Below, piece by piece: positions 21,693 to 46,894 of a stretch of DNA of 54,953 nucleotides. Every line of letters begins with the position of its first letter. The first letter of the stretch is position 1. This stretch comes from Acidobacteriota bacterium (GTDB lineage Bacteria > Acidobacteriota > Terriglobia > Terriglobales > Acidobacteriaceae). The notes beneath the pieces were generated by a model. The model was given only the letters and a program-made list of their open reading frames with translations. It had not been told where the DNA came from and made no database searches. The DNA lies in the NCBI GenBank assembly GCA_003225495.1, contig QIAJ01000059.1:1-54953 (forward strand). Direction: 5' to 3'. A program made the translations under genes and the position numbers.

Positions 21693-22982
21693 TCAAGGTT
21701 CAACCAGGCTCGCCTCGGGATCAACTAGCAGCCAAGCAACAGCGCCCACGACGCACAAGGCTGCCGCAAGCAGGAAAGACGCGGTCCATCCGAATCGAGC
21801 GGCTACGAATGGCGTAAGCGTTGCGGTAACGAATCCACCGAGTTGCCCTCCCGTGTTCATGAATCCAGAAACGAATCCTGACGATGGCCCGGCTATTCCT
21901 GCCGTTACTGACCAAAAGGAACTCTGTGACAAATAGAGGGCGCCCGCGCCTCCGGCAAGCACAACACTAGCTACACGCGCATTGCTCACTTGCGCGCCAA
22001 ACGCTATGAAGGCCGCCGCGAGTCCGATGCCAAGCACAGCGACTCCGCAACGGCCCAGCCGTGGACCTCTCCATTTGGTAAGGCGATCGCTGATAAGGCC
22101 GCCAAGAGGACACGTCACCGCCATGGCGAGAAACGGAAGCATCGCATAGAACGCGCTTGCTTTGAGGTTGAGGCCCCTCACGGTGGCAAGATATCTGTAA
22201 AACCAGCTAAAGAAAATCCAGGCAACATAGCCAAAGCAGAAATAGCTGATCGTGACAGCCCATACATCCTTGCTTCGGAGAACTCTGGACCAAGGGATCA
22301 AAGGCGATTCCGATTTTCGATTGAAAGAACTCGGCACCGTCAACCCAGTGTGGATTTGTTCGAGTTCGGCCTTGCTGACCCTGCCGTGTTCCTGTGGCGT
22401 ATCGCGGGCGGCGACGAACCAGACGGCGCCTGCGAGACAGCCCAGGATGGAACACACCCAAAACGATCCGCGCCATCCGTAATAAAAGATCAAGTATGAG
22501 ATCAGCGGCGGAGTGAAGCCGGCGCCTACTCCAACGCCCGCAAAAATCAGCCCGTTCGCGATGCCTCTCTCCTGCACAGGAAACCAGCGCGCAACAAAAT
22601 GGTTCGACGCAGGGTAAACAACGGCCTCCCCGGCACCGAGCAGGAAGCGGACCGAAATAAAGAGCAGAAGAGCGTGGCCGACCTGAGACGGGACGGCTGC
22701 TGTAAGAGCGGTAAAGATCCCCCACCAAAGAACGCCTGCCGCCAAAACTCTGCGAGAACCGAAGCGATCAGCGAGCATTCCACCGATAGTCTGAAATATG
22801 GCGTAGCCAGCCAGAAGCGCGCTGAAAATGTAGCCGAGTTGGATGTTATTGAAACCGTATTGTTCGACAATCGAGTTGCTGGCGATGGAAATGTTGACCC
22901 GATCCAAAAAGGAGACTGCGCTCAGAACAAAGAGCCAGAAGATCAGGAACCATCGCACATGACTCGATCGCGTTGCAGTCAT
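21693..22982 (-). CDS. MFS transporter, anion:cation symporter (ACS) type
   Basis: 429 residues, twelve predicted helices. Sequence traits match the ACS family, which carries sugar acids such as hexuronates, galactonate and glucarate: an N-terminal WFLIFWLFVLSAVSFLDRVNISIA, the MFS motif A region GGMLADRFGSRRVLA, and RFLLGAGEAVVYPASNHFVARWFP. It starts only 9 bases after the SelA-like gene stop, at the end of the minus-strand run beginning near 28233. This suggests it imports an acidic product of that run; the substrate is inferred, not read. Confidence 0.86.
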   Translation of the reverse strand: MTATRSSHVRWFLIFWLFVLSAVSFLDRVNISIASNSIVEQYGFNNIQLGYIFSALLAGYAIFQTIGGMLADRFGSRRVLAAGVLWWGIFTALTAAVPSQVGHALLLFISVRFLLGAGEAVVYPASNHFVARWFPVQERGIANGLIFAGVGVGAGFTPPLISYLIFYYGWRGSFWVCSILGCLAGAVWFVAARDTPQEHGRVSKAELEQIHTGLTVPSSFNRKSESPLIPWSRVLRSKDVWAVTISYFCFGYVAWIFFSWFYRYLATVRGLNLKASAFYAMLPFLAMAVTCPLGGLISDRLTKWRGPRLGRCGVAVLGIGLAAAFIAFGAQVSNARVASVVLAGGAGALYLSQSSFWSVTAGIAGPSSGFVSGFMNTGGQLGGFVTATLTPFVAARFGWTASFLLAAALCVVGAVAWLLVDPEASLVEP

Positions 22983-22991
22983 GAATAATCC

Positions 22992-24254
22992 TCAGGCCGC
23001 GTGGTCGCGGAAGAGCTTCACGAGCTGTTCGGACACGATCGTGTCTTCGCCGGGCTGAAGCATGAACGAGCTCATCGTCAAGCCGGGCCGGCCTTCTCCG
23101 CTGCCGATTACTATCGATGGCTTCGTTCCTCTCAGCCACTTTGACGCTTCTTTCGGGGTAACGTGGACGCGAGTTTCGTCCCAGGTAATGTGCAGGTGTG
23201 GTACGTGATTCGCGATATCCGGAGTAAAAAAAGATGTGCTAACGCCCGGGACTTTTTTGACTTGACTCGCAATACTATCGAGCCTCATCTGCCACTCCCG
23301 GGAGAGCGCGTCATGGTCTTCGTTCAGGTAAAGCTCCAGCGCCTTGACCATCCCGACGATTTCTTCCTTGCCTACCTTCTGGCTCCGCCCAATCGTATCC
23401 TCGTGCGGACTGTTGTTAAGCAGTGCGTTGGCGACAAGGTCTGTTCGTCCGATGAGAAGTCCGGCACATTGTGGACCGCGTATGGCCTTTCCACCGCTGA
23501 ACGTTACCAGGTCGTAGCCCATCACGGTGTAGTCCCACAAATGCGAAACAGGAGGAGTATCGGCGGCCGCATCATTCATGCAAGGCAAGTTGTACTGTTT
23601 GGCGAGCTTCGGCCACTCGTCCACTTTGATCTGACCGTCGGCGTTGGCGAAGTTCGTGAAGTGCATCATCGCCGTGCGCTCGTTGACCGCCCGGCGCAAC
23701 TGCTCGCGAGTTTCAATCTCGACGAGCCTTACACCGGTCGTCCGCAACTGATGGTCGAATGGATTGCGATGCGATTTCTGGATGATCACTTCCGACTTCA
23801 TACCGGTGAGATCGGGCAATTGACGGATCAAAGCCTCGTTGTCGCCGGTGAGGATGCCGGCCAAACCCGACTGAATGGCTGCGGCAGCACCCGAGGTTAC
23901 CAGCGCGGTGAAGCCATCCGGCAACTTGAGCATTTGGGCAATGCGCTTACCTGCGGCAACTTCGAGTTCCGGCATGCTGACGAAATGACGCCCGGCCTGA
24001 AGCATCACCGCTTCGAGTTCAGGGTGGGGTAGGGATCCGCCGAGCATGGTCATGGTCCCTTCGCAGTTAATCACGGTGGCAACGCCGAGCTCGTCGTAGA
24101 CGTTTCCAGACTGACCCAAACCACTGACGGTCGCGCTTGCGGGCGACGATGCACGTGCCCACCCAAATGACTTGCCTACCGTCGCAAGCAGGCCGGCAAT
24201 CGCCGCCCCGCTGCCTAGGAAACCCCGGCGATTCCATTTCGAACTTGGCTGCAT
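22992..24254 (-). CDS. Tat-exported SelA-like PLP enzyme (ammonia-lyase/dehydratase type)
   Basis: 420 residues. The twin-arginine signal (NRRGFLGSGAAIAGLLATVG) is followed by a fold-type I PLP domain of the SelA/D-glucosaminate-6-phosphate ammonia-lyase group: ELGVATVINCEGTMTMLGGS, ALVTSGAAAAIQSGLAGI, NDAAAD (PLP Asp region) and the lysine motif FSGGKAIRGPQCAGLL. It is not a true selenocysteine synthase because that enzyme is cytosolic and tRNA-binding. Export of the folded, PLP-loaded enzyme by Tat is the logical reading. It is preceded by an exported RidA gene and followed by a sugar-acid-type carrier. Paralogue at 38523. Confidence 0.85.
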   Translation of the reverse strand: MQPSSKWNRRGFLGSGAAIAGLLATVGKSFGWARASSPASATVSGLGQSGNVYDELGVATVINCEGTMTMLGGSLPHPELEAVMLQAGRHFVSMPELEVAAGKRIAQMLKLPDGFTALVTSGAAAAIQSGLAGILTGDNEALIRQLPDLTGMKSEVIIQKSHRNPFDHQLRTTGVRLVEIETREQLRRAVNERTAMMHFTNFANADGQIKVDEWPKLAKQYNLPCMNDAAADTPPVSHLWDYTVMGYDLVTFSGGKAIRGPQCAGLLIGRTDLVANALLNNSPHEDTIGRSQKVGKEEIVGMVKALELYLNEDHDALSREWQMRLDSIASQVKKVPGVSTSFFTPDIANHVPHLHITWDETRVHVTPKEASKWLRGTKPSIVIGSGEGRPGLTMSSFMLQPGEDTIVSEQLVKLFRDHAA

Positions 24255-24296: not shown

Positions 24297-24806
24297 CTAC
24301 TTCCGGACTACAGCAGCTATGCAGTTGATTTCGAGCAGCGACTTCCCGGGGACTCCGGCGACCGACACGGTTGTGCGGGCGGGACCTCCGTGGGGGAAAT
24401 AGGTTTTGAAAACCTTGTTCATGCCGTCATAAAAATCCAGGTTCCCAAGATAGACGGTCAGCTGGAGAATGCTATCCATGCTGCCACCGCCAGCTTCAAC
24501 CAGTTTCTTAACGTTATTCATCACTTTTGTTGTGTGGCTGGTTATGTCTGCGCCTTGTACATCGCCGGCATCGTTCGCGCCTTGGCCGGAAATGTAGATC
24601 AGGCCGTTGTGTACAATCAGCGACGTGATCATCTGGGTGCCGTCGGCGGGCTTACCGTCGTAGTTTAGCTTCTGGACGCCTGTGTCTTGCGCGGGGGAGG
24701 TTTGGGCGGCAGCGGTCTTTCCCAACACGGCTGCGCCGATGCCCAAGGTGGACAACATGGAAGCAAATTTCGTAGCGAAGTTTCGGCGGGTAACGGCTGA
24801 TTTCAC
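24297..24806 (-). CDS. Exported RidA-family protein
   Basis: 169 residues: an export signal with a Tat-like start (TRRNFATKFASMLSTLG, Ala-rich cut near TAAAQ), then one YjgF/YER057c/UK114 domain of about 120 residues (YISGQGANDAGDVQG ... VMNNVKKLVEAGGGSMDSILQLTVYLGNLDFYDGMN). The substrate-binding Arg is kept in GGPARTTVSV; the following Glu of E. coli RidA appears as Asn (LLEINCIAAV). Classic RidA hydrolyses enamine/imine products of PLP lyases, matching the SelA-like gene 42 bases downstream. GTG start with GAGGAGG ahead. Confidence 0.87.
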   Translation of the reverse strand: MKSAVTRRNFATKFASMLSTLGIGAAVLGKTAAAQTSPAQDTGVQKLNYDGKPADGTQMITSLIVHNGLIYISGQGANDAGDVQGADITSHTTKVMNNVKKLVEAGGGSMDSILQLTVYLGNLDFYDGMNKVFKTYFPHGGPARTTVSVAGVPGKSLLEINCIAAVVRK

Positions 24807-24857: not shown

Positions 24858-26471
24858 TTAGGGCAATGCAAAACAAAAAATGTCGCTTCCAGCAGCAATC
24901 GCAACATACTGTTTGCCTGCCACGGCATAGGTTATCGGCGAAGCGCTGAATTCCTGCCCGGTATTGAAGTGCCATATGGGCTTTCCGCTCCGGGCGTCCA
25001 CTGCCTCAAATGAGCCGTCATCGTCGCCGAAAAACACCAGGCCTCCGGCGGTGCTCAGCGTTCCACCTGAAGAATGGCCTGAGCCAACCTGAGGATACTT
25101 CCATGCAAACGACTCGGTCTCGAGGTTGTACGCAATGAGAAACTTCTTCCCGCTTTCGCCTGGAATGTGTTTTACGCCAGTCGAGTAGTAAGTCTCGCCT
25201 TCCTGGAATTGCTGCGGTTCGGACTTGGAGAAAAACGTTTGACACTCTTCGAGCGCCAGGAAGTACATGGAATGTGTGGACTCATTGTAAGAAGGCGCGT
25301 ACCAGTTCGTTGCCCCGGCATACCCAGGACAGACGCGGGATCCAGCGACCGTAGGTTTTACCTCGGCGCGGATGGGTCGCCCCTGACCGTCAATGCCCTT
25401 GGCCCAATTCAACTTCTCCACGAAAGGCACGGCTGACAGGAATTTTCCATTCGTGCGATCAAGAACGTAGAGGTATCCGTTGCGGTTGGCCTGAACCAGC
25501 AATTTGCGTTGCTCCCCTTTATATCTGGCGTCCGTAAGGATCGGGGTCTCGACAGCGTCGTAATCGAACAAGTCGTGCGGACTGAACTGGAAATACCATT
25601 TGAGCTTCCCAGTATCGGGATCGAGTGCCAACACACAGTCGGTGTAGAGATCGTCGCCGGGCCGAACGCTGCCTTCAAAATCCGGCGCTGGATTGCTCGT
25701 TCCCCAATAGATCGTGTTCAACTCAGGATCGTAAGTACCCGGCATCCAGGTAGTTCCGCCACCGCGAAGATACAATTCGCCGGGCCAGCTGTCCGATCCG
25801 AATTCTCCGGACGCGGGGATTGTCCAGAAACGCCAGGCGAGTTTGCCGGTCATGGCGTCATAGGCAGCCACAAACCCGCGCACGCCATCGTCGCCGCCGG
25901 ACGTTCCGACAATCACTTTGTCTTTCACAACCAAGGGCGCGCTGGTCGCGCCATAATTCTTGTTCCAATCGGCGTACGGGACATCCCAAATCAAACTGCC
26001 AGAACGAGCATCTATGCACAGCAGATGAGCGTTATCGGTCTCCATGTAGATCCGGTCACGCCAGACGGCGACCCCACGAGTCACGTGTTGTGCGGCATCG
26101 TCGATCAAGCCTTCTGAAATCGGCCACGGATGATGCCAAACCAAGCGGCCAGTACGGGCATCGAGCGCGAATGCGTCGTTTGCCGCCGTTACGAACATCA
26201 CTCCATTCACCACAACCGCAGTGACCACGAGACGCTTCGAGTTGCGCACGTGAAAAACCCACTGAGCGCGCAACTGCCCGACATTGCCGGTTCCAATCTC
26301 GGAAAGTCCGCTGTAACGCCGTCCGCTGTAATCGCCGTGGTAGGTCAGCCAATTCGCAGCTGGAGGAGCCGTCTCCAGATCGGACGTTCGCACGTCAATC
26401 TTGCCCGCGACTTGCTCCGCTTCGCTTGCGAGTGCGAAGGCCGTCGACGCCGCGAAAAGGACTCCAATCAT
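24858..26471 (-). CDS. Secreted PQQ-dependent (quinoprotein) dehydrogenase
   Basis: About 537 residues, an eight-bladed beta-propeller of the quinoprotein alcohol dehydrogenase type. Tryptophan-docking motifs recur (NDAFALDARTGRLVWH, DARSGSLIWDVPY, DPDTGKLKWYFQF). Active-site region: HDLFDYDAVETPIL. No cytochrome domain is fused, and the vicinal Cys pair of classic alcohol dehydrogenases is absent (QHVTRGVAVW at that place). The signal peptide begins near ATG 26471; the frame is open to a TTG at 26543, which would add a basic n-region and overlap iclR. The di-heme cytochrome at 28923 could accept its electrons. Confidence 0.87.
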   Translation of the reverse strand: MIGVLFAASTAFALASEAEQVAGKIDVRTSDLETAPPAANWLTYHGDYSGRRYSGLSEIGTGNVGQLRAQWVFHVRNSKRLVVTAVVVNGVMFVTAANDAFALDARTGRLVWHHPWPISEGLIDDAAQHVTRGVAVWRDRIYMETDNAHLLCIDARSGSLIWDVPYADWNKNYGATSAPLVVKDKVIVGTSGGDDGVRGFVAAYDAMTGKLAWRFWTIPASGEFGSDSWPGELYLRGGGTTWMPGTYDPELNTIYWGTSNPAPDFEGSVRPGDDLYTDCVLALDPDTGKLKWYFQFSPHDLFDYDAVETPILTDARYKGEQRKLLVQANRNGYLYVLDRTNGKFLSAVPFVEKLNWAKGIDGQGRPIRAEVKPTVAGSRVCPGYAGATNWYAPSYNESTHSMYFLALEECQTFFSKSEPQQFQEGETYYSTGVKHIPGESGKKFLIAYNLETESFAWKYPQVGSGHSSGGTLSTAGGLVFFGDDDGSFEAVDARSGKPIWHFNTGQEFSASPITYAVAGKQYVAIAAGSDIFCFALP

Positions 26472-26535
26472 GAGAGACTTCCGGAAAATTTCCGTGCGCT
26501 GCCGGTCGAACCTGACGCGCTGGACTGAGCGGCAT

Positions 26536-27366
26536 CTAAGCAAGGGGCCTTACCTCCGCCATCGCTTTGTGGTTAAGGGTGAGCGTAGCGGCGGCCTGGT
26601 ATCCCAGTTCGGCAGAGACTCGGGAACCAGCATCCTGGATGAGGGGCGCGAGCTGTCGGAGGCGTGTCACTGGCATGCGAAACAGCGGCGCAGTGATACT
26701 TAAGCTTGATTGCACGGCGCCGGTATGGTTGCGGATCGGAGCGGCAATACAACGGATGTGTAATTCGTGCTCTTCCAAGTCGCAGGCGTAACCATTCTTT
26801 CGCACTCGTTGCAGCTCGCTTTGGAGCTCCTGGAGACTACCGACCGTGTTTGCCGTCATTCGCTTCAGATCAAGTTGCCGCAGCACATATTCCCGTTCCT
26901 GATCCGGCATATAGGCCAGCATGACCTTGCCCACCGCCGTGCAATGGAGCGGAACAGCTGCGCCGATTCGCGAGTGAATCCGGAGTTGCTCGGGCGAATC
27001 GATCTTCTCAACATAGACCGCGGTGAGACCGTGGCGAACCGTAAGATGAATAGTTTCGCGGGTCTGCTGATTCAGCTCCACAAGGTACGGCAGGCTGAGT
27101 CGTCGGACATCGAGTTGTCCCAGAGCAGCCTGACCCACTGCGAAGCAAGCCAGTCCAAGGTGGTAGACGCCGCTAGCGCTACAATTCAAAAATCCCGAGG
27201 ATTCGAGGTTTACGAGAAAACGGTGAGTCGTACTAACGGGTAATCCCGAAAGTCGTGCCACTTGCATGGTGGTCAGGCCACGTTCGAACTGCGTGAATAG
27301 CTCCAGAAGGCGCAGTCCCCGTTGGAGAGCGGTGATGTTGTATTTGCGCTTACCGGCCTTGCGCAT
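26536..27366 (-). CDS. IclR-family transcriptional regulator
   Basis: 276 residues. N-terminal winged helix-turn-helix (NITALQRGLRLLELFTQ ... TTMQVARLSGLPVSTTHRFL, residues 8-60) and the C-terminal effector-binding domain (LTAVYVEKIDS ... VPLHCTAVGKVMLAYM ... IRCIAAPIRNHTGAV). IclR proteins usually sense a small carboxylic acid or sugar-acid intermediate and control adjacent catabolic genes. It lies in the middle of the minus-strand run, so it likely controls the RraA-to-MFS genes and perhaps the divergent RidA-to-hydrolase run. Confidence 0.9.
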   Translation of the reverse strand: MRKAGKRKYNITALQRGLRLLELFTQFERGLTTMQVARLSGLPVSTTHRFLVNLESSGFLNCSASGVYHLGLACFAVGQAALGQLDVRRLSLPYLVELNQQTRETIHLTVRHGLTAVYVEKIDSPEQLRIHSRIGAAVPLHCTAVGKVMLAYMPDQEREYVLRQLDLKRMTANTVGSLQELQSELQRVRKNGYACDLEEHELHIRCIAAPIRNHTGAVQSSLSITAPLFRMPVTRLRQLAPLIQDAGSRVSAELGYQAAATLTLNHKAMAEVRPLA

Positions 27367-27450: not shown

Positions 27451-28233
27451 TCAGAGACGGCCGAATTTCTTGACCGCTTCCTGAATGGATTTGAGCTTCT
27501 CGATGTACGGATACATCGAATGCTCCTTGAAATCCATCTGTTCCGACAGTTCCAAAACTTCCGTAGCCCGGGCCCGCGGCACTACTGCAACGCCGTCACT
27601 GTCGGCGACCACGATGTCGCCGGCATTCACTGTAACTCCACCACATTGGACCGCGATCTGTGCGCCACCGAAGCGATAGTGGTGAATCGACGTAGAGGGC
27701 ACGATACCGGTTGCATACACCGGAAACCCAATCTTCCTCAAGTACGCCACATCGCGCACACCGCCATCGATAACCGCACCGGAGTATCCGCGCGAAGCCA
27801 TTGCCGTGCCCATCAGTCCACCCATTCCGGCGATGTCGGCGCCGTCTTCAACCGCCATTACATACACGGAGTTGGGCGCGCCTTCATCGATGGCGGCCAA
27901 CATTCCGTTAAGGGCTGCGGGATCGTTGTTTCCTTCATCTTTCTTCAGTTGCACGGTGCGAGCGAAGCCTGCGAACCTCGTGGTGAAGATGGACTGCATC
28001 TGATGACCCATGTACATCCGCTTTCCCATGAGTTGTTCGATCGCGTCCGACACGGAAGCAACTTCCACTCGTCGATAACGTGCGAGCAGGGCATCGTCTT
28101 CGGTGGCAGGCGCTGAGGGAGTCGGTTGGGCGGCGAGGAACCAGGCAGCAATAAAAATAAGGCCGACCAGAGTGAATTTCCTCCGACCACCAGCATTTGT
28201 GCCGTCTTCGCGGCGCCGATTAAAGTTGTGCAT
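27451..28233 (-). CDS. Exported RraA-like protein (aldolase/decarboxylase family)
   Basis: 260 residues from ATG 28233, which has AGGAGG upstream. Residues 1-45 are an export signal (basic NRRREDG ... GGRRKFTLVGLIFIAAWFLAA). The mature part is the RraA/HMG-aldolase fold: VEVASVSDAIEQLMGKRM, FAGFARTVQLK, MGGLMGTAMASRGYSGAVIDGGVRDVAYLRKIGFPVYATG (split for reading), then GDIVVADSDGVAVVPR. The Gly-Arg-Asp metal/substrate triad (DGGVRD) is intact, so it may catalyse retro-aldol cleavage or decarboxylation of a 4-hydroxy-2-oxo acid. Cytosolic RraA also modulates RNase E, unlikely for an exported form. Confidence 0.84.
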   Translation of the reverse strand: MHNFNRRREDGTNAGGRRKFTLVGLIFIAAWFLAAQPTPSAPATEDDALLARYRRVEVASVSDAIEQLMGKRMYMGHQMQSIFTTRFAGFARTVQLKKDEGNNDPAALNGMLAAIDEGAPNSVYVMAVEDGADIAGMGGLMGTAMASRGYSGAVIDGGVRDVAYLRKIGFPVYATGIVPSTSIHHYRFGGAQIAVQCGGVTVNAGDIVVADSDGVAVVPRARATEVLELSEQMDFKEHSMYPYIEKLKSIQEAVKKFGRL

Positions 28234-28330: not shown

Positions 28331-28795
28331 ATGAAAATGCTGCGGCGTTCTTGGACTCTCGCCATCTTCCTGACTGGTGTCGTCGCCCTGTTCCTTAGCG
28401 TTCCAGTCAGCCTCGCGCAGGAGCACAAGGCCATCAGCGTCAGTGGAAACAAGAACCTTCCCTTCAGTGACGGCATCGTCGCGGGTAATACTTTATATGT
28501 TGCAGGCCAAGAGGGCACGGACGAGCAGAGTAAACTCGTCGCCGGGGGAATCGCGGCTGAGACAAAAGCTGCACTGGACAACATTCAGAAAGTGATCAAA
28601 GCCGCCGGGTTCGAACTCAGAGACATCGTGTCTGTGACTGTTTACCTAGCAGACATCAAGGAGTTCGGCGACATGAACAAGGTGTACCGGGAATTCATGC
28701 CGGACCCCAAGCCGGCGCGCGCTACGATCCAGGCAGCGGCGTTGGTTAACAACGCCCGGGTTGAGATTGCTGCGATCGCGGTTAAGCAAAAGTAA
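28331..28795 (+). CDS. Exported RidA-family protein
   Basis: 154 residues from ATG 28331 (AAGGAG upstream). Sec signal peptide MKMLRRSWTLAIFLTGVVAL ... LAQ, then one Rid domain: LPFSDGIVAGNTLYVAGQEG, AALDNIQKVIKAAGFELRDIVSVTVYL, MNKVYREFMPDPKPARATIQ (substrate Arg present), VEIAAIAVKQK (Glu replaced by Ala). Divergent from the RraA gene across about 97 bases; first of a plus-strand run continuing with the cytochrome, lactonase and hydrolase. Confidence 0.87.
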   Translation: MKMLRRSWTLAIFLTGVVALFLSVPVSLAQEHKAISVSGNKNLPFSDGIVAGNTLYVAGQEGTDEQSKLVAGGIAAETKAALDNIQKVIKAAGFELRDIVSVTVYLADIKEFGDMNKVYREFMPDPKPARATIQAAALVNNARVEIAAIAVKQK

Positions 28796-28922: not shown

Positions 28923-29762
28923 ATGTTTCGGATGAAAAGGCGTGTCAGTGCTGAGACTATGCGATCTCGATTGCATTTGCTTACGTTCCTGGCCTTGTCA
29001 GTAGCCGTTGTCAACGCGCAGCCTTCTCCAAAGGTGCGGAAGTCTCAGGCATCATCAGCCGGTGCAACGGTCGGTCAAAGAACGTTTTCGTCTCGGTGTG
29101 CCGGCTGCCACGGGCTTGACGGACGCGGCAGCCAGCGAGCTCCGAACATTGCAACTGATCCGACTATTCGGCACCTATCTGACCCTGAACTGACACAAAT
29201 CATCCTCAATGGCAGGACCGATTTTGGAATGCCCGCATTTCGAGAGCTTGGGAGCGGAGAGATTCAACACGTAGTTGACTATCTGCGCGTGCTGCAAGGT
29301 GCGGGTGTTGTATCGCCCGTTGGAAATCCACAACGAGGCAAAGATATTTTCTTTGGAAAGGCTGAGTGCTCCACCTGCCACACCGTTGCTGGCCAGGCAG
29401 TGTTTGTTGGTTCTGACTTGTCCACATACGCTCGCGGCTTGACCGCAGCTGAGATTCGCAGGGCGATCACCGACCCGGCACCTTCCGCCGGGCGGGCGCG
29501 AACGGCTGTGGCTACTACTCGCGATCGACAAACACTTATCGGCGCGGTACGAAATGAAGACAACTTTTCAATTCAGTTGCAGGGTGCCGACGGCACTTTC
29601 CACTTTCTGCTGAAGTCGGATCTCGACAAACTCGAATATCGGCGCCTGCCCGCCATGCCCACGAACTACGGACAGAAGCTGTCTCCGCAGGAATTGGATG
29701 ATCTGGTTGGGTACCTCCAAAGTATCAAAATTGGGACGGTACCCGACCCCGGTGAGGAATAG
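28923..29762 (+). CDS. Di-heme cytochrome c
   Basis: 279 residues, secreted (signal around residues 13-32, ending VVNAQ). Two CXXCH sites: CAGCH near residue 60 and CSTCH near 139. The likely axial Met of the first heme is in TDFGMPAFREL. The first domain ends with a VVDYLRVLQG helix, the second with LDDLVGYLQSIK, both usual for small class-I cytochrome folds. A natural electron acceptor for the PQQ dehydrogenases in this cluster. The stop lies 3 bases before the next gene. Confidence 0.88.
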   Translation: MFRMKRRVSAETMRSRLHLLTFLALSVAVVNAQPSPKVRKSQASSAGATVGQRTFSSRCAGCHGLDGRGSQRAPNIATDPTIRHLSDPELTQIILNGRTDFGMPAFRELGSGEIQHVVDYLRVLQGAGVVSPVGNPQRGKDIFFGKAECSTCHTVAGQAVFVGSDLSTYARGLTAAEIRRAITDPAPSAGRARTAVATTRDRQTLIGAVRNEDNFSIQLQGADGTFHFLLKSDLDKLEYRRLPAMPTNYGQKLSPQELDDLVGYLQSIKIGTVPDPGEE

Positions 29763-29765
29763 TTC

Positions 29766-30731
29766 ATGAAAATCGCTGGGACGTTTATCCGACGTGGGCT
29801 GATAGTTGTGCTGCTCGCGGTTTGCGCTCCGGCGCAAACGACGAGGCGAACTTTCTCAGTCGAGGCACACTCGCCGACTTTGTGGAATTTGATCGATCGC
29901 AAAGCCAGTCTGGAAACTGTGGCTGTCGGATTTGGGTTCACAGAAGGCCCGATGTGGGATCCAGCAGGATTTCTCTATGTCAGCGATGAGACGATCAACA
30001 AGATCTTCAAGGTGTACCCGAACGGCAGAAAGGAAGAAGTGATCGCTCTCGGTGATCCGGACGGCAATACCTTTGACCGGCGTCATCGCCTGATTGACTG
30101 CGCCAGCGTCCTCCGCGCCATTATCGAGGTGACACCGGATGGAAGATACAAGATCCTGGCCGACCATTATGACGGTAAGAGATTCAATAGTCCGAACGAT
30201 GTCATCGTCGGGCCGGACGGAGCGCTCTATTTCACCGACCCAACTCTGGATCTTGTCGAAGGTGAAAAACAGGAGATTCCTTTTCAGGGCGTCTATCGGC
30301 TCGATGAAAAAGGGAACGTGAGGCTGCTTACCAAGGATCTGACTCAACCGAACGGCCTCGCCTTCTCGCCTGATGGGAAGCGTTTCTATGTCGATGACAG
30401 CGAGAAGAGGAACATCCGCATCTACGATGTCGCCTCCGACAGTTCACTCACTAACGGGCGGATTTTTGGCGAGGAGCCTGGGGGCAAGGGTGAGGGGGTT
30501 CCCGACGGGATCAAGGTCGATGAGCAGGGAAATCTTTTTATAACCGGCCCGAAAGGGGTTTGGGTTTGGGACGCGGGCGGCAAGCACATCGGGACAATTG
30601 TGGTTCCTGAGCAGCCGGCGAATCTTGCCTGGGGAGACTCCGACTACCAAACCCTCTATATCACCGCAACGACATCCGTTTATCGGCTCCGGCTGAAGGC
30701 CAGGGGTTTCGTCCCATATCTTGCACATTGA
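29766..30731 (+). CDS. Secreted SMP-30/gluconolactonase-family protein
   Basis: 321 residues with a signal peptide (FIRRGLIVVLLAVCAPAQ). Six-bladed propeller with metal-ligand blocks FTEGPMWDPAGFLYVSDE, RFNSPNDVIVGPDGALYFTDP and GVPDGIKVDEQGNLFITGP. The family opens sugar lactones with Ca or Zn, the product type made by PQQ sugar dehydrogenases. It is tightly packed with the cytochrome (3 bases) and hydrolase (13 bases). Confidence 0.88.
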   Translation: MKIAGTFIRRGLIVVLLAVCAPAQTTRRTFSVEAHSPTLWNLIDRKASLETVAVGFGFTEGPMWDPAGFLYVSDETINKIFKVYPNGRKEEVIALGDPDGNTFDRRHRLIDCASVLRAIIEVTPDGRYKILADHYDGKRFNSPNDVIVGPDGALYFTDPTLDLVEGEKQEIPFQGVYRLDEKGNVRLLTKDLTQPNGLAFSPDGKRFYVDDSEKRNIRIYDVASDSSLTNGRIFGEEPGGKGEGVPDGIKVDEQGNLFITGPKGVWVWDAGGKHIGTIVVPEQPANLAWGDSDYQTLYITATTSVYRLRLKARGFVPYLAH

Positions 30732-30744
30732 ATCAGGAGATTCC

Positions 30745-37040: not shown

Positions 37041-37124
37041 TGTGTTCCTCCATGCTGAAGAGTCGGGCGGGCACAGCATCCCGCCGAAATCCGTTGGCCG
37101 AGATGACACACGCCTTGATTCTAT

Positions 37125-38522: not shown

Positions 38523-39803
38523 TCATGCTGCGGATTTTCCCTTTTGCGCCGAACTTAGAATCTCACGCAATCTCTGGCCCACAATGATTTCCTGGCCGGG
38601 TTGGATCGTCATTGAGACCAGCTCAATGTGGTCGGCCTCCTTGTGCTCCTTGCGATTCGGGTTGCCCTCACGAACCGCGGTCACGAGGCTGGGGTTGTCT
38701 GAGCCGAGGACTTCGATGACGGGATCGTTCTCGCGCAGCTTTTGCACACAGTCTGACGTGCTGAACCCCCATGCGGCCTGGTCCCAGAAAACTTTGAGCG
38801 TTGGGAAACGGTTCCCATCTTCGGGAATGTGGACGTCCGTTTTCACGCCCGGAACCGTGTCGACGAGTTTTCGAATACGGTCGATCCTTTCATTCCACTC
38901 GCGGTACACCTTCTTCTCATCCACATTCAGCCATGTCTCAAGCGCTGTAACGCAACCGATCACTTCTTCCTTTCCGACCTTCATGGCACGGCAGACAGAT
39001 CCTTCGCGGGGACTGCTGTTAGCCAAAGCTGCTTCGATCAAGTCCTTTCGACCCAAAAGCAAGCCGCTGCATTGAGGCCCACGCAGGCCCTTCCCGCCGG
39101 AGAAAGCGTACAGATCAATTTTCATCCGCGCGTAAAGGCGCGCGTTATCCGCGGGGGGAATGCCGGCCGCATCGTCCAGTAACATTGGAACCTTGCGATC
39201 CCTCGCGACGGCGAGTTGGCGTTCCAGTTTCTCGCCGAGATCGGTGGTGTAGATCATCGCCGTGTTTTCGTTGATCGCGTTGGCGAGTTCTTCCGGCGAA
39301 TACGCAAGAATCAGTTTGGCTCCCGTGAGCCGGATGGCGTTATCAAAGGCGCTGCGCCCACCCATCATGATGACTTCATTTTTGAGCCCGGTCGTGTCGG
39401 GTAGTTGCCAGACGTATTTGTCGTTGGCGCCCGCCATGCACGCCGCCGTGGCCACCGCCATGGCGCCCGCTGCGCCCGATGTGACCATTCCCGACTCGGC
39501 GCCGGTTAACTCCGCGAGCCGGCGGCCGGCGCCGCGTTGCAAGTCCAGCATGTTGACGAAGTGTTGCCCGGCCTCAATCTGAGCTTGGCGAACTTCCGGG
39601 AATTCAAGGGAGCCGCTCAGGTACGTCCATGTTCCTCGACAATTGATTACGGTCTTCACCCCAAGTCGGGTGTATACATTCTGGCGGGGATTTTTCCCGA
39701 TTGCGGTGGCGGCCTGCGCGTAGAGATTACGCGCAGCAATCTGGCTCAACAAGGGAGCCGCTGCTGCAAATTTGATGAATGACCGCCGACTGGAATTCCC
39801 CAT
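38523..39803 (-). CDS. Second Tat-exported SelA-like PLP enzyme
   Basis: 426 residues from ATG 39803 (GGGGAG upstream). Tat signal SSRRSFIKFAAAAPLLSQIAA. The PLP domain parallels the 22992 paralogue: RLGVKTVINCRGTWTYLSGS, GMVTSGAAGAMAVATAA, LLDDAAGIPPAD and the lysine motif FSGGKGLRGPQCSGLLLGR. The C-terminus has an extra charged loop (REGNPNRKEHKEADH). Conservation with the first copy is clear but far from identical, so they may take different substrates. Upstream gene of the triple-Rid protein; divergent from the DUF4380 gene. Confidence 0.85.
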   Translation of the reverse strand: MGNSSRRSFIKFAAAAPLLSQIAARNLYAQAATAIGKNPRQNVYTRLGVKTVINCRGTWTYLSGSLEFPEVRQAQIEAGQHFVNMLDLQRGAGRRLAELTGAESGMVTSGAAGAMAVATAACMAGANDKYVWQLPDTTGLKNEVIMMGGRSAFDNAIRLTGAKLILAYSPEELANAINENTAMIYTTDLGEKLERQLAVARDRKVPMLLDDAAGIPPADNARLYARMKIDLYAFSGGKGLRGPQCSGLLLGRKDLIEAALANSSPREGSVCRAMKVGKEEVIGCVTALETWLNVDEKKVYREWNERIDRIRKLVDTVPGVKTDVHIPEDGNRFPTLKVFWDQAAWGFSTSDCVQKLRENDPVIEVLGSDNPSLVTAVREGNPNRKEHKEADHIELVSMTIQPGQEIIVGQRLREILSSAQKGKSAA

Positions 39804-39923
39804 TGAGTTCTCCCCGAGAGGAATTCGGTATATCACAGATCGAGCTTGACGGACATCACTTTATTTCGTTTGATTAGGTTTCCTTTCGTTCTGCGAGGAT
39901 GGTTTTTACCCTGAACAGGAGCA

Positions 39924-41327
39924 ATGATGCGTTTGAAGCTGCGAAACCCCAACCTGAGACGAGTTTTGTCGAGTCTGCTTTTTCTTGGAGTGCCAAGCCT
40001 TAACGTGGTCTGGGCCCAAGGCAACGGCGGATCGGTTCAGCCGACGACTTCGCAGTGCCGCGTGGAGGCCGTCGACTACAGAGGCTGGCACGCGCAAAGG
40101 CTTTCCAATCGATGGGTAGAACTGATTATCGTCCCGCAAAATGGGGGGCGCGTAATGCAAGTGACCTTTGCAGGGCACCCGTATTTCTTCGTCAATCCGA
40201 AATTGGAAGGCAAATACTTTCCTCCGGATCAGAGCCAGTGGTTTAACTACGGCGGCGACAAGATCTGGCTACTGCCCGAGGGCAACGATGACGAGCAACA
40301 TTGGGCCGGAGGGTCGGACGTGATTGACGACGGTCCCTTCACCTTTCGAAAGGTTTCGGAAGGTGAACATTGTGAAGCGGAACTCACGGGCACCTCGGAT
40401 CCAAAGACGGGAATACAGTTCCTCCGTAACATTCGGCTGGACACCGACTCTCCGCAGATTCGCTTTCGCGCGACCATGAAAAACACAAGCGGACACGCTC
40501 TCGAATGGTCGATGCAGTCGGTCTCTCAATACAACACGGCGGACCCGGGTGATTCATCCAAACTCAATCAGGGTTTTCGCACGTTTGCCCCGGCGAATCC
40601 CGCAAGCAGCTATCTCAATCGCTATCATGTGAGGTTCGGGCCCGCGGAAAATACGGCGGCTTCGATACGAGAGGACGGCTTGTTTACGCTGCGCTATGTT
40701 CACATGGCGGCGGAACTCTGGCTGGACTCTACCGCCGGATGGTTGGCAGTGGTCGATGGCACCCGTCGCTACGCCATGGTGGAGCGTTTTCAATTTGAAG
40801 AATCCCGCGCGTATCCCGGCAAGGCGTCAATCATCTTCTGGACTAACGGTCCAGAGCTAAAACTGAGCGACGACGGCGAAGTTTCACTGCGATCGAAAGA
40901 TGAGCCGTTCTACCTTGAAGCTGAGATCAACTCTCCAATGTGCCGGTTGCGTGCGGGTGAGGCGTGCACACTGGACACGGAATGGTTCCCCACCCGCGCG
41001 GGCAGCGAATTTCACACGGTAACCGATGCCGGTATTGTGCTACGCCCGCTTCGAGCCCTGCAGCAGGAGAATGGCAAGATCAGGATTTCGGGGAGCTTTG
41101 GAGTATTCTTCGCCGGACGCCTGGTCGCGCATTTCTATAATGAACACGGCAAAGAGCTGCAAGCTTTGCCGCTCACCGATGTCGACCCATCCGATTTGGT
41201 TTCGCTGGAAACGGAAATCGCTCCGGTGGAAAAGCCTGCTCGCATCTCGCTTCATTTGGAAGATCGGAATGGTGTGGATCGCGGTTTACTCCAGGAAGTT
41301 CAGGTTGGCTCGCCGGAGAAGCGCTGA
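39924..41327 (+). CDS. Secreted DUF4380-type (mutarotase-fold-like) protein
   Basis: 467 residues, signal peptide ending WAQ. The mature protein shows an aldose-epimerase-like beta-sandwich: SNRWVELIIVPQNGGRVMQVTFAGHPYFF, WFNYGGDKIWLLPEGNDDE, RNIRLDTDSPQIRFRATMKNTSG. The pattern matches DUF4380. Likely binds or interconverts a sugar; catalytic residues are not defined for the family. It ends 1 base before the start of the second quinoprotein gene, so the two are co-translated. Confidence 0.75.
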   Translation: MMRLKLRNPNLRRVLSSLLFLGVPSLNVVWAQGNGGSVQPTTSQCRVEAVDYRGWHAQRLSNRWVELIIVPQNGGRVMQVTFAGHPYFFVNPKLEGKYFPPDQSQWFNYGGDKIWLLPEGNDDEQHWAGGSDVIDDGPFTFRKVSEGEHCEAELTGTSDPKTGIQFLRNIRLDTDSPQIRFRATMKNTSGHALEWSMQSVSQYNTADPGDSSKLNQGFRTFAPANPASSYLNRYHVRFGPAENTAASIREDGLFTLRYVHMAAELWLDSTAGWLAVVDGTRRYAMVERFQFEESRAYPGKASIIFWTNGPELKLSDDGEVSLRSKDEPFYLEAEINSPMCRLRAGEACTLDTEWFPTRAGSEFHTVTDAGIVLRPLRALQQENGKIRISGSFGVFFAGRLVAHFYNEHGKELQALPLTDVDPSDLVSLETEIAPVEKPARISLHLEDRNGVDRGLLQEVQVGSPEKR

Positions 41328-41328
41328 C

Positions 41329-42972
41329 GTGAATTTTGCTGGCAGAGCATTCACCGTGGTCCTGCTGGTCGCCGCTGCGCTGGGCTGGCCCTTATCCGCG
41401 CAACAAACGGGGAGGTCTCCCGTCAGCAGCGCCTCGAACGTAGGCCCAGAGGACTTGCTCGCACAGCCGGTCGGCGCGAACTGGACTTCCTACAACGGGG
41501 ACTACACCGGTCGTCGCTACAGCAGCCTGAGCGAAATCAAGCCTGAGAATGTCTCGCAGCTGCGCGCGGCTTGGGTTTTTCATCCCGGCAACTCCGAAAA
41601 GCTCGAAACGACTCCCGTTGTCGTGGACGGCGTCATGTACGTTACCTCAGCGAACGACGCATTCGCTCTGGACGCGCGAACGGGCCGGATGGTCTGGCAT
41701 TACCAGCGGCCAGTGAGCTCGGGACTGCTGGATGATGCCGCGTCTCATCACAATCGCGGTGTCGCGATGTGGAGGAACTTCGTCTACATGGAAACCGACG
41801 ATGCGCATCTACTCTGCCTCGATGCCCGGTCGGGAACCCTGTTGTGGGATGTGAAGTACGCCGACAAAACCTTGCACTACGGCGCCACCAGCGCTCCCCT
41901 CATTGTGAAAGACATAGTGATCGTCGGGACGTCCGGAGGCGACTCTGGTGTGCGAGGATTTCTCGCAGCTTACGACGCGCTGACCGGCAAACTCAAATGG
42001 CGCTTCTGGACAATTCCAGGACCTGGCGAGTTCGGGTCTCAAAGTTGGCCCGGCGATTCCTATCTGCATGGCGGGGGCACGACCTGGATGCCCGGCACCT
42101 ATGATCCCCAACTCGACACTCTGTACTGGACGACCAGCAACGCAGCTCCTGATTTTGTGGGTGACACCCGTCCCGGGGATGACCTCTATACGGCTTGCGT
42201 GCTGGCGCTTGATCCGAATACGGGCAAATTGAAGTGGTACTTCCAGTTCACGCCCCACGACCTGTATGACTATGACGCGAATCAAACGCCGGTCCTGGTG
42301 GATGTCGCAGACGGAGGCGCGACCCGTCACTTGCTGGTGCAGGCCAACCGCAATGGCTTTCTCTATGTCCTCGACCGCACGAATGGAAAGTTTCTGAGTG
42401 CGACCCCGCTTGTCCAGAAGCTGAACTGGGCCTCAGGTGTGGGCGCATCTGGCCGCCCTATACTCTCGGGTCGAATACCAACCGCTCCGGGCACGTCCAT
42501 CTGTCCCGGCATCAACGGAGCCACCAACTGGTTTTCGCCTTCTTACAATCCCGACACTGGACTCTTTTATGTGATTGCGCTTGAGAATTGCAACCTGTAT
42601 TTCACGAATCCAAAACCATTTAAACCTGGCGAAACCTACTATGCCACGGGTACGAAGCATCCGCCCGATGAGAACGCACAGAAAACGCTGCTGGCGTATT
42701 CCGTAATCGAGGGAAAGATCATGTGGCGCTATCCGCAGGTCGGTCTGGGTGATTCGTGGGGAGGTACTCTAACCACTGCCGGCGGACTCGTTTTCTTTGG
42801 GGATGACACCGGATCCCTGGAAGCTGTCGAGGCTCGCACCGGCCGTCCGCTGTGGCACTTCAACACTGGACAGACGATGCACGCGTCACCAATGAGTTAC
42901 ATGGTCGATGGAGTTCAGTACGTGGCAGTCGCGGCGGGCAGCAACATTTTCAGCTTCGCGCTTCCGCATTGA
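41329..42972 (+). CDS. Second secreted PQQ-dependent dehydrogenase
   Basis: 547 residues from GTG 41329. Signal peptide AFTVVLLVAAALGWPLSAQ. Clear paralogue of the 24858 protein: NWTSYNGDYTGRRYSSLSEI, DARTGRMVWHYQ, DPNTGKLKWYFQF, HDLYDYDANQTPVL, CPGINGATNWFSPSYN. It also lacks the vicinal Cys pair (SHHNRGVAMW) and a fused heme domain. The frame is open far upstream but only as a shadow of the DUF4380 gene. Confidence 0.87.
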   Translation: MNFAGRAFTVVLLVAAALGWPLSAQQTGRSPVSSASNVGPEDLLAQPVGANWTSYNGDYTGRRYSSLSEIKPENVSQLRAAWVFHPGNSEKLETTPVVVDGVMYVTSANDAFALDARTGRMVWHYQRPVSSGLLDDAASHHNRGVAMWRNFVYMETDDAHLLCLDARSGTLLWDVKYADKTLHYGATSAPLIVKDIVIVGTSGGDSGVRGFLAAYDALTGKLKWRFWTIPGPGEFGSQSWPGDSYLHGGGTTWMPGTYDPQLDTLYWTTSNAAPDFVGDTRPGDDLYTACVLALDPNTGKLKWYFQFTPHDLYDYDANQTPVLVDVADGGATRHLLVQANRNGFLYVLDRTNGKFLSATPLVQKLNWASGVGASGRPILSGRIPTAPGTSICPGINGATNWFSPSYNPDTGLFYVIALENCNLYFTNPKPFKPGETYYATGTKHPPDENAQKTLLAYSVIEGKIMWRYPQVGLGDSWGGTLTTAGGLVFFGDDTGSLEAVEARTGRPLWHFNTGQTMHASPMSYMVDGVQYVAVAAGSNIFSFALPH

Positions 42973-44935: not shown

Positions 44936-44973
44936 TCTGGACAATCGCTGATAACGAAAAGAGAGGATTTACG

Positions 44974-45444: not shown

Positions 45445-45454
45445 GACAGGTGTA

Positions 45455-46894
45455 TCAGTCGGTTCGGCTAGCTGGGTTCATACTCGCGCGGGACTTGCGG
45501 AAGTAGAAGTAGAGCGGCAGGCCGGCGGCGATAAGGCCGAGGCCGACGGAGGATTCCAACGGGCGAGTGTGGATCGTGTTCCAGACCAGCCAGCTGGCGA
45601 CCAGCACGAACACGATGGGCAAGAAAGGATATGCCAGCGTCTTGTAGGGTCGTTCTGCTTGTGGCATTTTACGGCGAAGCACGAAAACAGAAGTGGTCAC
45701 CAGCGCATAGAATATCCACGAAGCGAAAACCACGCAATCAGTGAGCTGATCGTACGTCCCAGAAATCGCCAGCAAGCTGGCCCAAACTCCCTGCAAAACA
45801 ATCGAGAAGACCGGAACATGCGTTCCGGCACTTACGCGGCCAAACGGAGCAAAAAACAGACGGTCCCGTGCCATTGCGTAAGGTACGCGTGCCGATGAAA
45901 GAATAGTTCCATTGAGAGCGCCCAAGGTGGAAATCACAAATACCAAGGAGACCAAGGTTGCACCGTAACGCGCCATAAAAGTCTGCGCGGCTCTGGCGGC
46001 AACGGGCAGTGCATCCCGGTAGGTTGTGGAGTTTGAAGTCAGGACATCAGAAAAGGGAAGTGCGTAGAAATAGGAGAAGTTGGCGACGCAATAAATTACA
46101 ACCACAAGAGCGAGACCTATGATCAGACCTCGCGGAACATTGCGCGTAGGATTTTGTACTTCTGCTGAAACCATCGGCATCTGATTCCAGCCTTCGTAGG
46201 CCCAGAGTGCCGCGAGCATCGCTGTCCCGAACGGAGCAAGCCCGGACCATGGCCGAACTCCATCAGGTCGTGCGAGATTGGCCAGTGTGCCTCCCTTGGA
46301 GAAAAGGAAGATGCCACCGACGATGACCGCAATGCCAGCGACTTTGAGGAATGTCATCAGCAATTGAACCCGGCCACCAAGAACCACTCGGCCGCAGTTC
46401 AACGCTGAAAGCAGAACGATGACGCCTAGAGCTAGCACCTGTTGTGTCCCGAATCGCCAGACCAGAGTCTGGCCAAATGCGTGATAGGTGTACTCCGCCC
46501 AGAGATGATTGATCGGCAACATCGCGGCCAGAAAGGTTGCAAAACCAACTGCCAGGCTCGCGATCGATCCGGCCGATCCCATCACGAATCGCATCCACCC
46601 ATAAAGGAACGCAGTTCCTTCGCCATACGCTTCGAGTAAATAGGCATATTCGCCTCCCGCACGTGGCAGCAGCCCGCCCAATTCAGCATAGGTGAGAGCG
46701 CCCGCCATCGAGAGCAGTCCGGCAAGCACCCAAGCCCACAGCACCAGGCTGGGCGATCCGACCGTCTGAGCCATCACGGTTGCCTTGAGAAAAACTCCCG
46801 TGCCAATGACTGTGCCGACGACCAGAGAAATCGTGTGAGAAAGCGTTAGGCCGCGATCAAGTTGTGCTGTGGGTGTGGTCTGGGAGTGGCTCAT
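45455..46894 (-). CDS. APC-superfamily amino-acid permease
   Basis: 479 residues, twelve predicted helices. First helix carries the APC substrate-binding GTVIGTGVFLKAT; next ALTYAELGGLLPRAGGEYAYLLEAYG; the sixth-helix region is FGTAMLAALWAYEGWNQMPMVSAEVQNPTRNVPRGL. Resembles the LAT/basic-amino-acid exchanger branch. Convergent with the RidA/D-amino-acid enzyme pair, 10 bases between ends. Confidence 0.88.
   Translation of the reverse strand: MSHSQTTPTAQLDRGLTLSHTISLVVGTVIGTGVFLKATVMAQTVGSPSLVLWAWVLAGLLSMAGALTYAELGGLLPRAGGEYAYLLEAYGEGTAFLYGWMRFVMGSAGSIASLAVGFATFLAAMLPINHLWAEYTYHAFGQTLVWRFGTQQVLALGVIVLLSALNCGRVVLGGRVQLLMTFLKVAGIAVIVGGIFLFSKGGTLANLARPDGVRPWSGLAPFGTAMLAALWAYEGWNQMPMVSAEVQNPTRNVPRGLIIGLALVVVIYCVANFSYFYALPFSDVLTSNSTTYRDALPVAARAAQTFMARYGATLVSLVFVISTLGALNGTILSSARVPYAMARDRLFFAPFGRVSAGTHVPVFSIVLQGVWASLLAISGTYDQLTDCVVFASWIFYALVTTSVFVLRRKMPQAERPYKTLAYPFLPIVFVLVASWLVWNTIHTRPLESSVGLGLIAAGLPLYFYFRKSRASMNPASRTD

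Follow-up and report, generated by a model that had tools for sequence, protein, structure and literature searches.

The described systems closest to the gene island treated here are (i) the DgaE/DGL enzymes; (ii) the Ong pathway of chitin oxidation; (iii) the pyridoxal 5'-phosphate (PLP) enzymes PvdN and PtaA, exported by twin-arginine translocation (Tat); (iv) Cap15; (v) the Rid/YjgF family; and (vi) periplasmic sugar oxidation dependent on pyrroloquinoline quinone (PQQ). The island lies within the window, i.e., the whole stretch of 54,953 nucleotides that was analysed (GenBank contig QIAJ01000059.1 of the Acidobacteriota assembly GCA_003225495.1), and it combines two SelA-like PLP enzymes, SelA1 and SelA2, with Rid proteins and with genes of sugar oxidation. 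The genome (4.54 Mb in 261 contigs, 91.6% completeness) contributes the window as its contig C14.

In DGL, His-163 protonates C3, and the H163A variant, with kcat largely retained (20 vs 27 per second), frees the enamine; the same authors name RidA as an enzyme that breaks down such enamine species (PMC9529869). In the Ong pathway, glucosaminate is converted into 2-keto-3-deoxygluconate (KDG), on which a KDG kinase then acts, and growth on N-acetylglucosaminate requires OngD, a RidA protein (PMC9537276). PvdN and PtaA are exported via Tat in a folded state with their cofactor, and are active in the periplasm (PMC6206403). Cap15 is an O2-dependent monooxygenase-decarboxylase of antibiotic synthesis, acting on a beta-hydroxy-alpha-amino acid (PMC7497351). 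Together with DGL, Cap15 is the closest solved fold to the SelA-like enzymes of the island. As for the remaining two systems, work on Rid proteins treats them as protectors of PLP enzymes in the cytosol, as do the Ong and DGL papers, and Rid trimers are known; periplasmic PQQ sugar oxidation converts glucose into gluconate.

The island resembles the DgaE/DGL systems in the fold family of its PLP enzymes, in the PLP lysine, in the carboxylate arginine and in the proposed beta-elimination of a 2-amino-aldonate. Canonical dgaE clusters also contain the same amidohydrolase/deacetylase family and an aldolase (KDPG aldolase, for 2-keto-3-deoxy-6-phosphogluconate). The island differs from them in that its enzymes have predicted export leaders and Rid partners, Arg-301 is replaced by His or Thr, the His-His loop is missing, there is no phosphotransferase system, and an RraA-like protein takes the place of DgaF. 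With the Ong pathway it would share an oxidised amino sugar, the conversion of glucosaminate into KDG, a RidA protein and a KDG kinase; but OngC is a fold-III PLP enzyme and OngB and OngC are predicted to be cytosolic (PMC9537276), whereas the island enzymes are of SelA type with Tat-type leaders. No OngB-like gene was found among the island genes scanned with Pfam and NCBIfam profiles, and the island does not count as an Ong cluster.

Like PvdN and PtaA, the SelA-like enzymes are PLP enzymes with predicted Tat export to the periplasm, but those two proteins serve siderophore tailoring in Pseudomonas through other chemistry, and the available part of their source mentions no Rid partner (PMC6206403). 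The Rid proteins of the island belong to PF01042, and differ from the described family in their export leaders and in the presence of one three-domain chain with partly changed site residues. Finally, periplasmic glucose oxidation likewise places a quinoprotein, a cytochrome and a lactonase outside the cytoplasm, to which the island adds a predicted extracytoplasmic PLP deamination. A literature search limited to open-licence papers found no description of an exported Rid/SelA-like pathway.

It is here proposed, with the arguments about evenly balanced, that the island degrades 2-amino-2-deoxy-aldonates such as D-glucosaminate outside the cytoplasm. The route, every reaction step of which is inferred, would be as follows: (i) a mutarotase-like protein and the quinoprotein dehydrogenases (PQQ1 and PQQ2) would oxidise the amino sugar to a lactone, passing electrons to a di-heme cytochrome as their proposed acceptor; (ii) an SMP-30 lactonase would open the lactone; (iii) SelA1 and SelA2, perhaps serving different epimers, would form the external aldimine and eliminate the C3 hydroxyl as water, giving an enamine that they, without the proton donor of DGL, would release free; (iv) the co-exported Rid1, Rid2 and Rid3 would hydrolyse the enamine to KDG and ammonia; and (v) the 2-keto-3-deoxy acid would be either cleaved by RraA or imported, a carrier of the major facilitator superfamily (MFS) delivering KDG to KDG kinase and KDPG aldolase. 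Such a route would mirror in the periplasm, and on non-phosphorylated compounds, what the Dga and Ong routes do in the cytosol. In its complete form, i.e., an extracytoplasmic amino-sugar deamination in which Tat-exported lyases release the enamine, Rid partners (one of them a single-chain trimer) are co-exported and an exported RraA acts downstream, the proposal is tentative and more probably wrong than right.

If correct, a Rid-dependent periplasmic pathway would constitute the outer half of an Entner-Doudoroff-like route. With exported Rid proteins beside exported PLP enzymes, enamine stress and PLP elimination, a chemistry normally met inside cells, would extend beyond the cytoplasm. A function open to testing would also be assigned to a large protein family (at least 7,574 matches for SelA1 and at least 7,997 for SelA2, not all of them exported), part of which carries a selenium transferase annotation, and the pathway would provide soil bacteria with a route to amino sugars from chitin or cell walls.

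The association of SelA-like and Rid genes is conserved. From the 475 relatives met in a scan of GTDB genomes, 79 loci were retained and annotated through phmmer matches at E 1e-8 or better on open reading frames (ORFs) of at least 70 aa; in 55 of the 79, SelA1 scores at least 550 bits, and these are termed close loci. A Rid gene lies within 300 bp of SelA1 in 44 of the 55 and within 5 kb in 47, and Rid genes were found within 5 kb in 6/16 loci with SelA1 scores of 400-550 bits and in 1/8 below 400 bits. Since the genome has only nine Rid genes in 4.5 Mb, this adjacency is far above chance. SelA2 genes also have a Rid gene next to them (11/14; in two of the other three, the locus ends too early to tell).

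Within 9 kb of SelA1, and with score floors applied, the 55 close loci contain a quinoprotein (46), an MFS carrier (42), RraA (40), the cytochrome (40), the lactonase (27), an IclR regulator (22), a TonB receptor (18), Rid2 (15), a DUF4380 protein (14), SelA2 (12) and a glycoside hydrolase (10). RraA and TonB were counted at 150 bits or more (an RraA count of 44 would include weak matches). These are lower bounds, because 10 of the 55 loci have less than 7 kb upstream; of the 45 with at least 7 kb, 40 have a Rid gene, 41 a quinoprotein, 39 the cytochrome and 37 RraA. The order of the core genes is largely constant, the exceptions being RraA, found downstream in two loci, and the cytochrome and the MFS carrier, found on the opposite strand in three and one, respectively. 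An argument based on 49 distinct arrangements in the 55 loci was dropped, as a recount traced them mostly to truncation or to accessory genes; this, together with the correction of the RraA count to 40/55, slightly lowers confidence in the proposed pathway. One locus (L051) comes from a record titled Betaproteobacteria that carries an Acidobacteriota-type island, possibly a misassigned bin. Strain KBS 96 (L054) offers a natural contrast: SelA1, PQQ1, the cytochrome and the lactonase are present, and the available stretch shows no Rid gene.

Leaders were called by our own heuristics on N-termini (not by SignalP), the Tat test being RRx[hydrophobic]. In the window, SelA1, SelA2 and Rid1 have twin-arginine leaders, with the twin arginine ahead of a hydrophobic core as in Tat substrates, and they are predicted to be exported via Tat. 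Hydrophobic leaders are found on Rid2, Rid3, PQQ1, PQQ2, the cytochrome, the lactonase, the DUF4380 protein and RraA; Rid4 shows no leader by eye. Among the matches listed, the Tat motif occurs within the first 45 residues of 118/120 SelA1 homologues and 114/120 SelA2 homologues, the SelA2 of the window included.

In the close loci, leaving out genes with fewer than 25 residues before the domain, the twin arginine stands directly before the hydrophobic core in 61/61 genes labelled SelA1, 13/13 labelled SelA2 and 44/46 labelled Rid1; it is absent from the controls of the same loci (KdgK 0/7, Eda 0/6, NagB 0/2, IclR 0/12). A Sec-type pattern was found in Rid2 (15/15), Rid3 (11/11), the lactonase (30/30), the cytochrome (39/43), PQQ1 (32/36) and the genes labelled RraA (37/48, some being weak RraA matches), and among controls in KdgK 0/7, Eda 0/6, NagB 0/2, IclR 1/12 and, as a membrane protein, MFS 2/38. 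A previous interpretation of this DNA without database searches (hereafter, the sequence-only reading) had named two outcomes that would count against it, negative signal predictions for most members and a lack of conserved co-occurrence in related genomes; neither came about, as nearly all members have leader patterns and the genes co-occur in many genomes.

When 297 genomes were drawn evenly from the phylum, 30 proved to have SelA-like genes at E 1e-40. Excluding the two genes of the genome under study, and scoring up to six candidates per genome, 67 SelA-like genes from 29 genomes were considered, 63 of which have the Tat motif (here, the test spans 75 residues and may include untranslated stretches). 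A Rid gene lies within 1 kb of 29/67 and within 5 kb of 31/67; because tandem SelA-like genes share one Rid gene, the 29 correspond to 22 Rid genes. From these counts, Rid is a frequent but not universal partner of SelA-like genes.

In the same draw, a second type of island recurs, with the order TonB-RraA-SelA-Rid-SelA-amidohydrolase. The loci L120, L121, L126, L131 and L132 (from L110-L164) contain two SelA-like genes with the Tat motif, Rid, RraA, an amidohydrolase and a TonB-type receptor. In this second type the leader heuristic is passed by 18/22 Rid proteins (three of the four failing rows are cut by the alignment after SRRGLLK), 11/11 RraA and 16/18 amidohydrolases. Plasmid pACIX902 of Granulicella tundricola has an island of this type plus a lactonase and a BBE-domain protein; RR leaders are present on its RidA, both SelA-like proteins and the lactonase, and hydrophobic ones on RraA and the amidohydrolase, whereas the BBE-domain protein has no leader at the annotated start.

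SelA1 and SelA2 are not members of the DgaE family, either by cut-off or by His loop. They score 173.6 and 164.2 bits with TIGR01437 (cut-off 385.3) and 128.7 and 141.3 with NF047797 (cut-off 600), the two profiles of the DgaE family/DGL, and 38.8 and 24.2 with TIGR00474 (SelA, cut-off 267.9). The PLP lysine, located in SGGK, is invariant across 39 aligned rows and kept in every row of a second alignment (Lys-217 in the DGL paper is 213 in the chain numbering used here). SelA1 and SelA2 keep the carboxylate arginine, for which some relatives have K, Q, H or P. The loop that in DGL holds His-162 and His-163 is shortened and without His-His in SelA1, SelA2 and every SelA-like row of the loci that was aligned (ORFs <300 aa and matches of 200 bits or less being excluded). 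At the position of Arg-301, which docking places on the phosphate side in DGL, SelA1 has H and SelA2 has T; of the phosphate-side cluster 301/332/346, only 301 falls within the DGL stretch compared. As Arg-301 is replaced and His-His is missing, the substrates would be non-phosphorylated and the enamine would be released.

The loss of the His loop was also considered as a rule to predict a Rid neighbour, but this rule failed on plasmid relatives, and the loss is invoked for the exported branch alone, as a mechanism. In the regions listed, no RidA accompanies canonical DgaE with His-His (Priestia, Lacticaseibacillus) or with Ala-His (Bartonella). Both His-His and an annotated RidA nearby are missing for the relatives from Natronococcus, Mesorhizobium and Sinorhizobium terangae. 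The absence of RidA is weak evidence on the plasmids, whose gene tables are incomplete. A natural SelA-Rid fusion (P0136, 712 aa) was discarded as an artefact, its C-terminal part being garbled as by a frameshift.

All four Rid proteins of the window exceed the gathering cut-off of PF01042 (27.3 bits). At the positions Arg-105 and Glu-120, which we take to be those of the deaminase-type Rid site, both residues are kept in Rid1 and Rid2: the Rid1 orthologues have R105 in 45/45 and E120 in 44/45, and the Rid2 orthologues have both in 18/18. In seven Rid3 orthologues, domain 1 has Q for Glu, domain 2 has mostly A, and domain 3 has Q or E for Arg; the Glu column of domain 3 is uncertain, and one alignment puts Q there. 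Rid3 is possibly a single-chain (pseudo-)trimer with unequal active sites. Regarding RraA, its RD motif is present in 40/40 orthologues, and it is proposed to be a pyruvate aldolase acting on the 2-keto-3-deoxy acid.

Clues on substrate and product come from recurrent neighbours of the island: (i) a sugar kinase closest to KDG/KDGal (2-keto-3-deoxygalactonate) kinases, below their cut-offs, the scanned copy being cut by the contig end; (ii) a KDPG aldolase (eda; 194 bits, above the cut-off of 156); (iii) a protein like glucosamine-6-phosphate (GlcN6P) deaminase, NagB (146 bits, below the cut-off of 326); and (iv) an exported amidohydrolase/deacetylase (430 bits, above the cut-off of 371, in a copy from the distant locus L088). 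Counted within 9 kb of SelA1 over the 55 close loci, these four are found in 15, 12, 10 and 3, respectively, the amidohydrolase being rare in the main island and common in the second type. Among the 39 loci whose downstream stretch reaches 4 kb, the kinase or the aldolase lies within 4.5 kb in 11 (one with a weak kinase: L067, 74 bits), and the GlcN6P-deaminase-like gene in seven. In 10 of those 11 loci, the MFS carrier is beside SelA1, on the same strand and ahead of the kinase or aldolase, as expected if KDG is imported; this carrier is predicted to take up KDG or aldonates.

The minority of loci with these neighbours point to an amino-aldonate substrate such as glucosaminate and to KDG as product. 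KDG is better supported than in the sequence-only reading, whose guess of an amino-sugar substrate gains evidence from these genes and from the amidohydrolase of the second island type. Elsewhere in the genome under study there are a KDPG aldolase above cut-off and a kinase at 74% identity. Separately, on contig C163 (L109) of this genome, the KDG kinase homologue stands at the contig end; next to it, a long ORF in divergent orientation resembles altronate dehydratase by eye.

The glycoside hydrolase has no Pfam match of that kind. Its middling model (predicted local distance difference test, pLDDT, 66.7) resembles GH79 beta-glucuronidase/heparanase, the best match being the GH79 beta-glucuronidase of Acidobacterium capsulatum (template modelling, TM, scores 0.38/0.59), and its F5/8 domain is nearest to glucanase/chitosanase domains (5e-5). 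Its homologues adjoin the GlcN6P-deaminase-like gene in six loci. Naming a target glycan from this protein was given up, as neither the model nor the F5/8 match is decisive.

Among the alternatives, the one that survives best holds that the quinoproteins are empty: no PQQ enzymes would be at work, other enzymes would carry out the oxidation or the substrate would arrive already oxidised, and only SelA, Rid and RraA would be functional. This is possible, if on the unlikely side, and it overlaps with the proposed pathway rather than excluding it. TIGR04528 (acido-empty-quinoprotein group A, cut-off 650) is the top NCBIfam family by score for both quinoproteins, though under its cut-off; PQQ2, nevertheless, passes TIGR03075 (PQQ methanol/ethanol dehydrogenases, cut-off 480.05), which PQQ1 just misses. 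A vicinal Cys-Cys disulfide and Glu ligands are features of PQQ-dependent alcohol dehydrogenases. In both quinoproteins and their aligned orthologues, the vicinal Cys pair has become Ala/Ser and one Glu has become Asp; still, the catalytic Asp, Asn and Arg of 1kv9 and two of its Trp positions are conserved in both, as they are in 37/37 orthologues of PQQ1. The PQQ1 of the window alone has Val at the Glu of the 1kv9 GLEATP motif, with Glu in 37/37 orthologues, and it may be a case of local decay.

The genes of PQQ synthesis bear on the same question. The genome under study has no pqqC (26 vs 240 bits) or pqqE (89 vs 381) above cut-off, in an assembly of 91.6% completeness, whereas pqqC exceeds its cut-off in 25/39 island genomes vs 14/297 of the phylum draw. 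Phylogeny confounds this strong contrast, and the 39 genomes stem from loci picked, out of the 79, mostly for long contigs. A comparison of pqqC inside a single family was set aside, since its members in the draw are incompletely listed. The Granulicella island, with a lactonase and a BBE-domain protein that is leaderless at the annotated start, suits an oxidation by other enzymes. In the genome under study, the PQQ step may be decaying or reliant on outside PQQ. The view that the pathway is fed by PQQ oxidation keeps the support of the pqqC contrast among island genomes, and becomes doubtful for this one on account of the missing pqqC and pqqE, the lost Glu of PQQ1 and the rank of TIGR04528.

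Alternatively, cell walls or litter could supply the substrates in the form of beta-hydroxy amino acids (D-serine, D-threonine, hydroxyaspartate) instead of an amino sugar acid, with the oxidases belonging to a separate pathway. At its right edge, the window has a fold-III PLP gene resembling D-threonine aldolase/D-hydroxyaspartate dehydratase, Rid4 and an amino acid permease of the APC family; the IclR regulator is nearest to BhcR, and OngC accepts D-serine and D-threonine (PMC9537276). This explanation is unlikely: near SelA1, the fold-III gene and Rid4 occur in none of the 55 close loci and the permease in one, whereas sugar-oxidation genes are near in most.

An O2-dependent oxidase or decarboxylase role for the SelA-like PLP enzymes, after the manner of Cap15 (a cytosolic enzyme) or the Tat-exported PvdN, with Rid hydrolysing the released imine, is quite unlikely. 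The best sequence match in the PDB is Cap15 (8t7j) for SelA2, but it is DGL (7lc0) for SelA1, whose model (pLDDT 87.7) gives TM scores of 0.77/0.88 to Cap15 and 0.74/0.84 to DGL in a fold search. The absence of the proton-donor loop of DGL and the beta-hydroxy-alpha-amino acid used by Cap15 would fit such an oxidase; the KDPG-aldolase and KDG-kinase-like neighbours, the lactonase and RraA suit, instead, a 2-keto-3-deoxy acid product. Lastly, that a single clade simply inherited these genes side by side, without their forming a pathway, is very improbable, for even if most of the 79 loci are by title metagenome-assembled genomes of Acidobacteria/Terriglobia with largely the same core order, SelA-Rid-RraA recurs in a different arrangement with diverged SelA branches, and RraA, the cytochrome, the MFS carrier and the lactonase shift place or strand in a few loci.

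Apart from the Val of PQQ1 and the missing PQQ genes, the following observations weigh against an extracytoplasmic glucosaminate pathway. With respect to conservation, the 55 close loci are not independent events, because their core order is largely the same; in 8 of them Rid is missing from the 5 kb around SelA1 (two of the 8 are cut short), and 38/67 SelA-like genes of the phylum draw have none within 1 kb. With respect to the enzymes, the nearest fold to the SelA1 model is as much Cap15 as DGL; SelA1 has an invariant stretch, KSHRNPFDH, whose His could be a proton donor; cytosolic relatives with His-His also have RidA nearby (Thalassospira, R. leguminosarum and Phyllobacterium; in Paraburkholderia, a Rid ORF is about 1 kb away); and OngC yielded KDG and ammonia in vitro without OngD (PMC9537276). 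With respect to the substrate, the KDG-kinase-like and NagB-like neighbours are both under their family cut-offs; in the genome under study, KDG kinase and KDPG aldolase sit on other contigs and the only NagB match is at 32%; and the glycoside hydrolase model leans towards a GH79 beta-glucuronidase.

The genes of the window (Table 1) were re-derived from the ORF list and then identified through Pfam and NCBIfam profile searches. Several follow each other closely, with gaps of 9 bp (MFS-SelA1), 42 bp (SelA1-Rid1), 51 bp (Rid1-PQQ1) and 51 bp (Rid3-SelA2).

Table 1. Genes of the island and of its right edge along the window, with their principal profile or structure matches.
Feature	Position	Strand	Matches
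MFS carrier	21693..22982	-	PF07690 217.5 bits; TIGR00893 232.7 bits, below cut-off 395; nearest NCBIfam, D-galactonate transporter group (anion:cation symporter, ACS, type)
SelA1, Tat-type SelA/DgaE-like PLP enzyme	22992..24254	-	7lc0 1.8e-30
Rid1, Rid protein with Tat-type leader	24297..24806	-	PF01042 79.3 bits
PQQ1, secreted quinoprotein-fold dehydrogenase	24858..26543	-	PF01011; TIGR04528 538.4 bits and TIGR03075 476.9 bits, both below cut-off
IclR-family regulator	26536..27366	-	PF01614, PF09339; closest BhcR 188 bits and KdgR 174 bits, under their cut-offs
RraA-like protein with leader	27451..28233	-	PF03737 116.8 bits
Rid2, Rid protein with Sec-type leader	about 28331..28795	+	PF01042 115.4 bits
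Secreted di-heme cytochrome c	28923..29762	+	PF13442, PF00034; two CxxCH
Secreted SMP-30/gluconolactonase-like lactonase	29766..30731	+	PF08450 164.7 bits
Accessory secreted protein, glycoside hydrolase-like, with an F5/8-type domain	30721..32925	+	
TonB-dependent outer-membrane receptor; accessory	33150..37109	-	PF25183 638 bits
Rid3, partner of SelA2; three-domain Rid chain with Sec-type leader	37239..38471	-	PF01042 in three stretches, 197 bits
SelA2, second Tat-type SelA/DgaE-like PLP enzyme	38523..39803 (start as in P0122; also read as 38523-39836)	-	8t7j 3.6e-31; 7lc0 4.6e-30
Secreted DUF4380/mutarotase-like protein	39924..41327	+	PF14315 0.00049; NF052227 (mutarotase) 9.6e-10, 38 bits; both below cut-off
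PQQ2, second secreted quinoprotein-fold dehydrogenase	41329..42972 (start approximate)	+	TIGR04528 543.8 bits, below cut-off; TIGR03075 498.7 bits, above cut-off
Fold-III PLP gene, D-threonine-aldolase/D-hydroxyaspartate-dehydratase-like	43748-44935	+	
Rid4, Rid gene without leader	44902-45444	+	PF01042 99 bits
APC permease, convergent	45455-46894		

The sequence-only reading had described two Tat-type SelA-like enzymes and four Rid proteins (six domains in all, three proteins with leaders), which profile searches and leader patterns confirm, and had listed an RraA-like protein, two quinoproteins, a di-heme cytochrome, a lactonase, an IclR regulator and a carrier, all of them recovered by profile. 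It had also counted as members the glycoside hydrolase and the TonB receptor, which are indeed present but less constant among the close loci, and had extended the island over the whole of 21693..46894, an extent that stands for the core set and not for the three genes of the right edge. All in all, its observation is confirmed and its interpretation partly supported, being right in outline, with fewer genes and with a doubtful PQQ step in this genome.

A further candidate, in which the fold-III PLP gene, Rid4 and the permease would form a cytosolic arm like OngC/OngD, was left out on the counts of 0, 0 and 1 in 55 loci. As an observation on these genes themselves, the fold-III PLP gene and Rid4 (43748-45444) constitute a pair of the same kind as OngC and OngD of the chitin-oxidation pathway.

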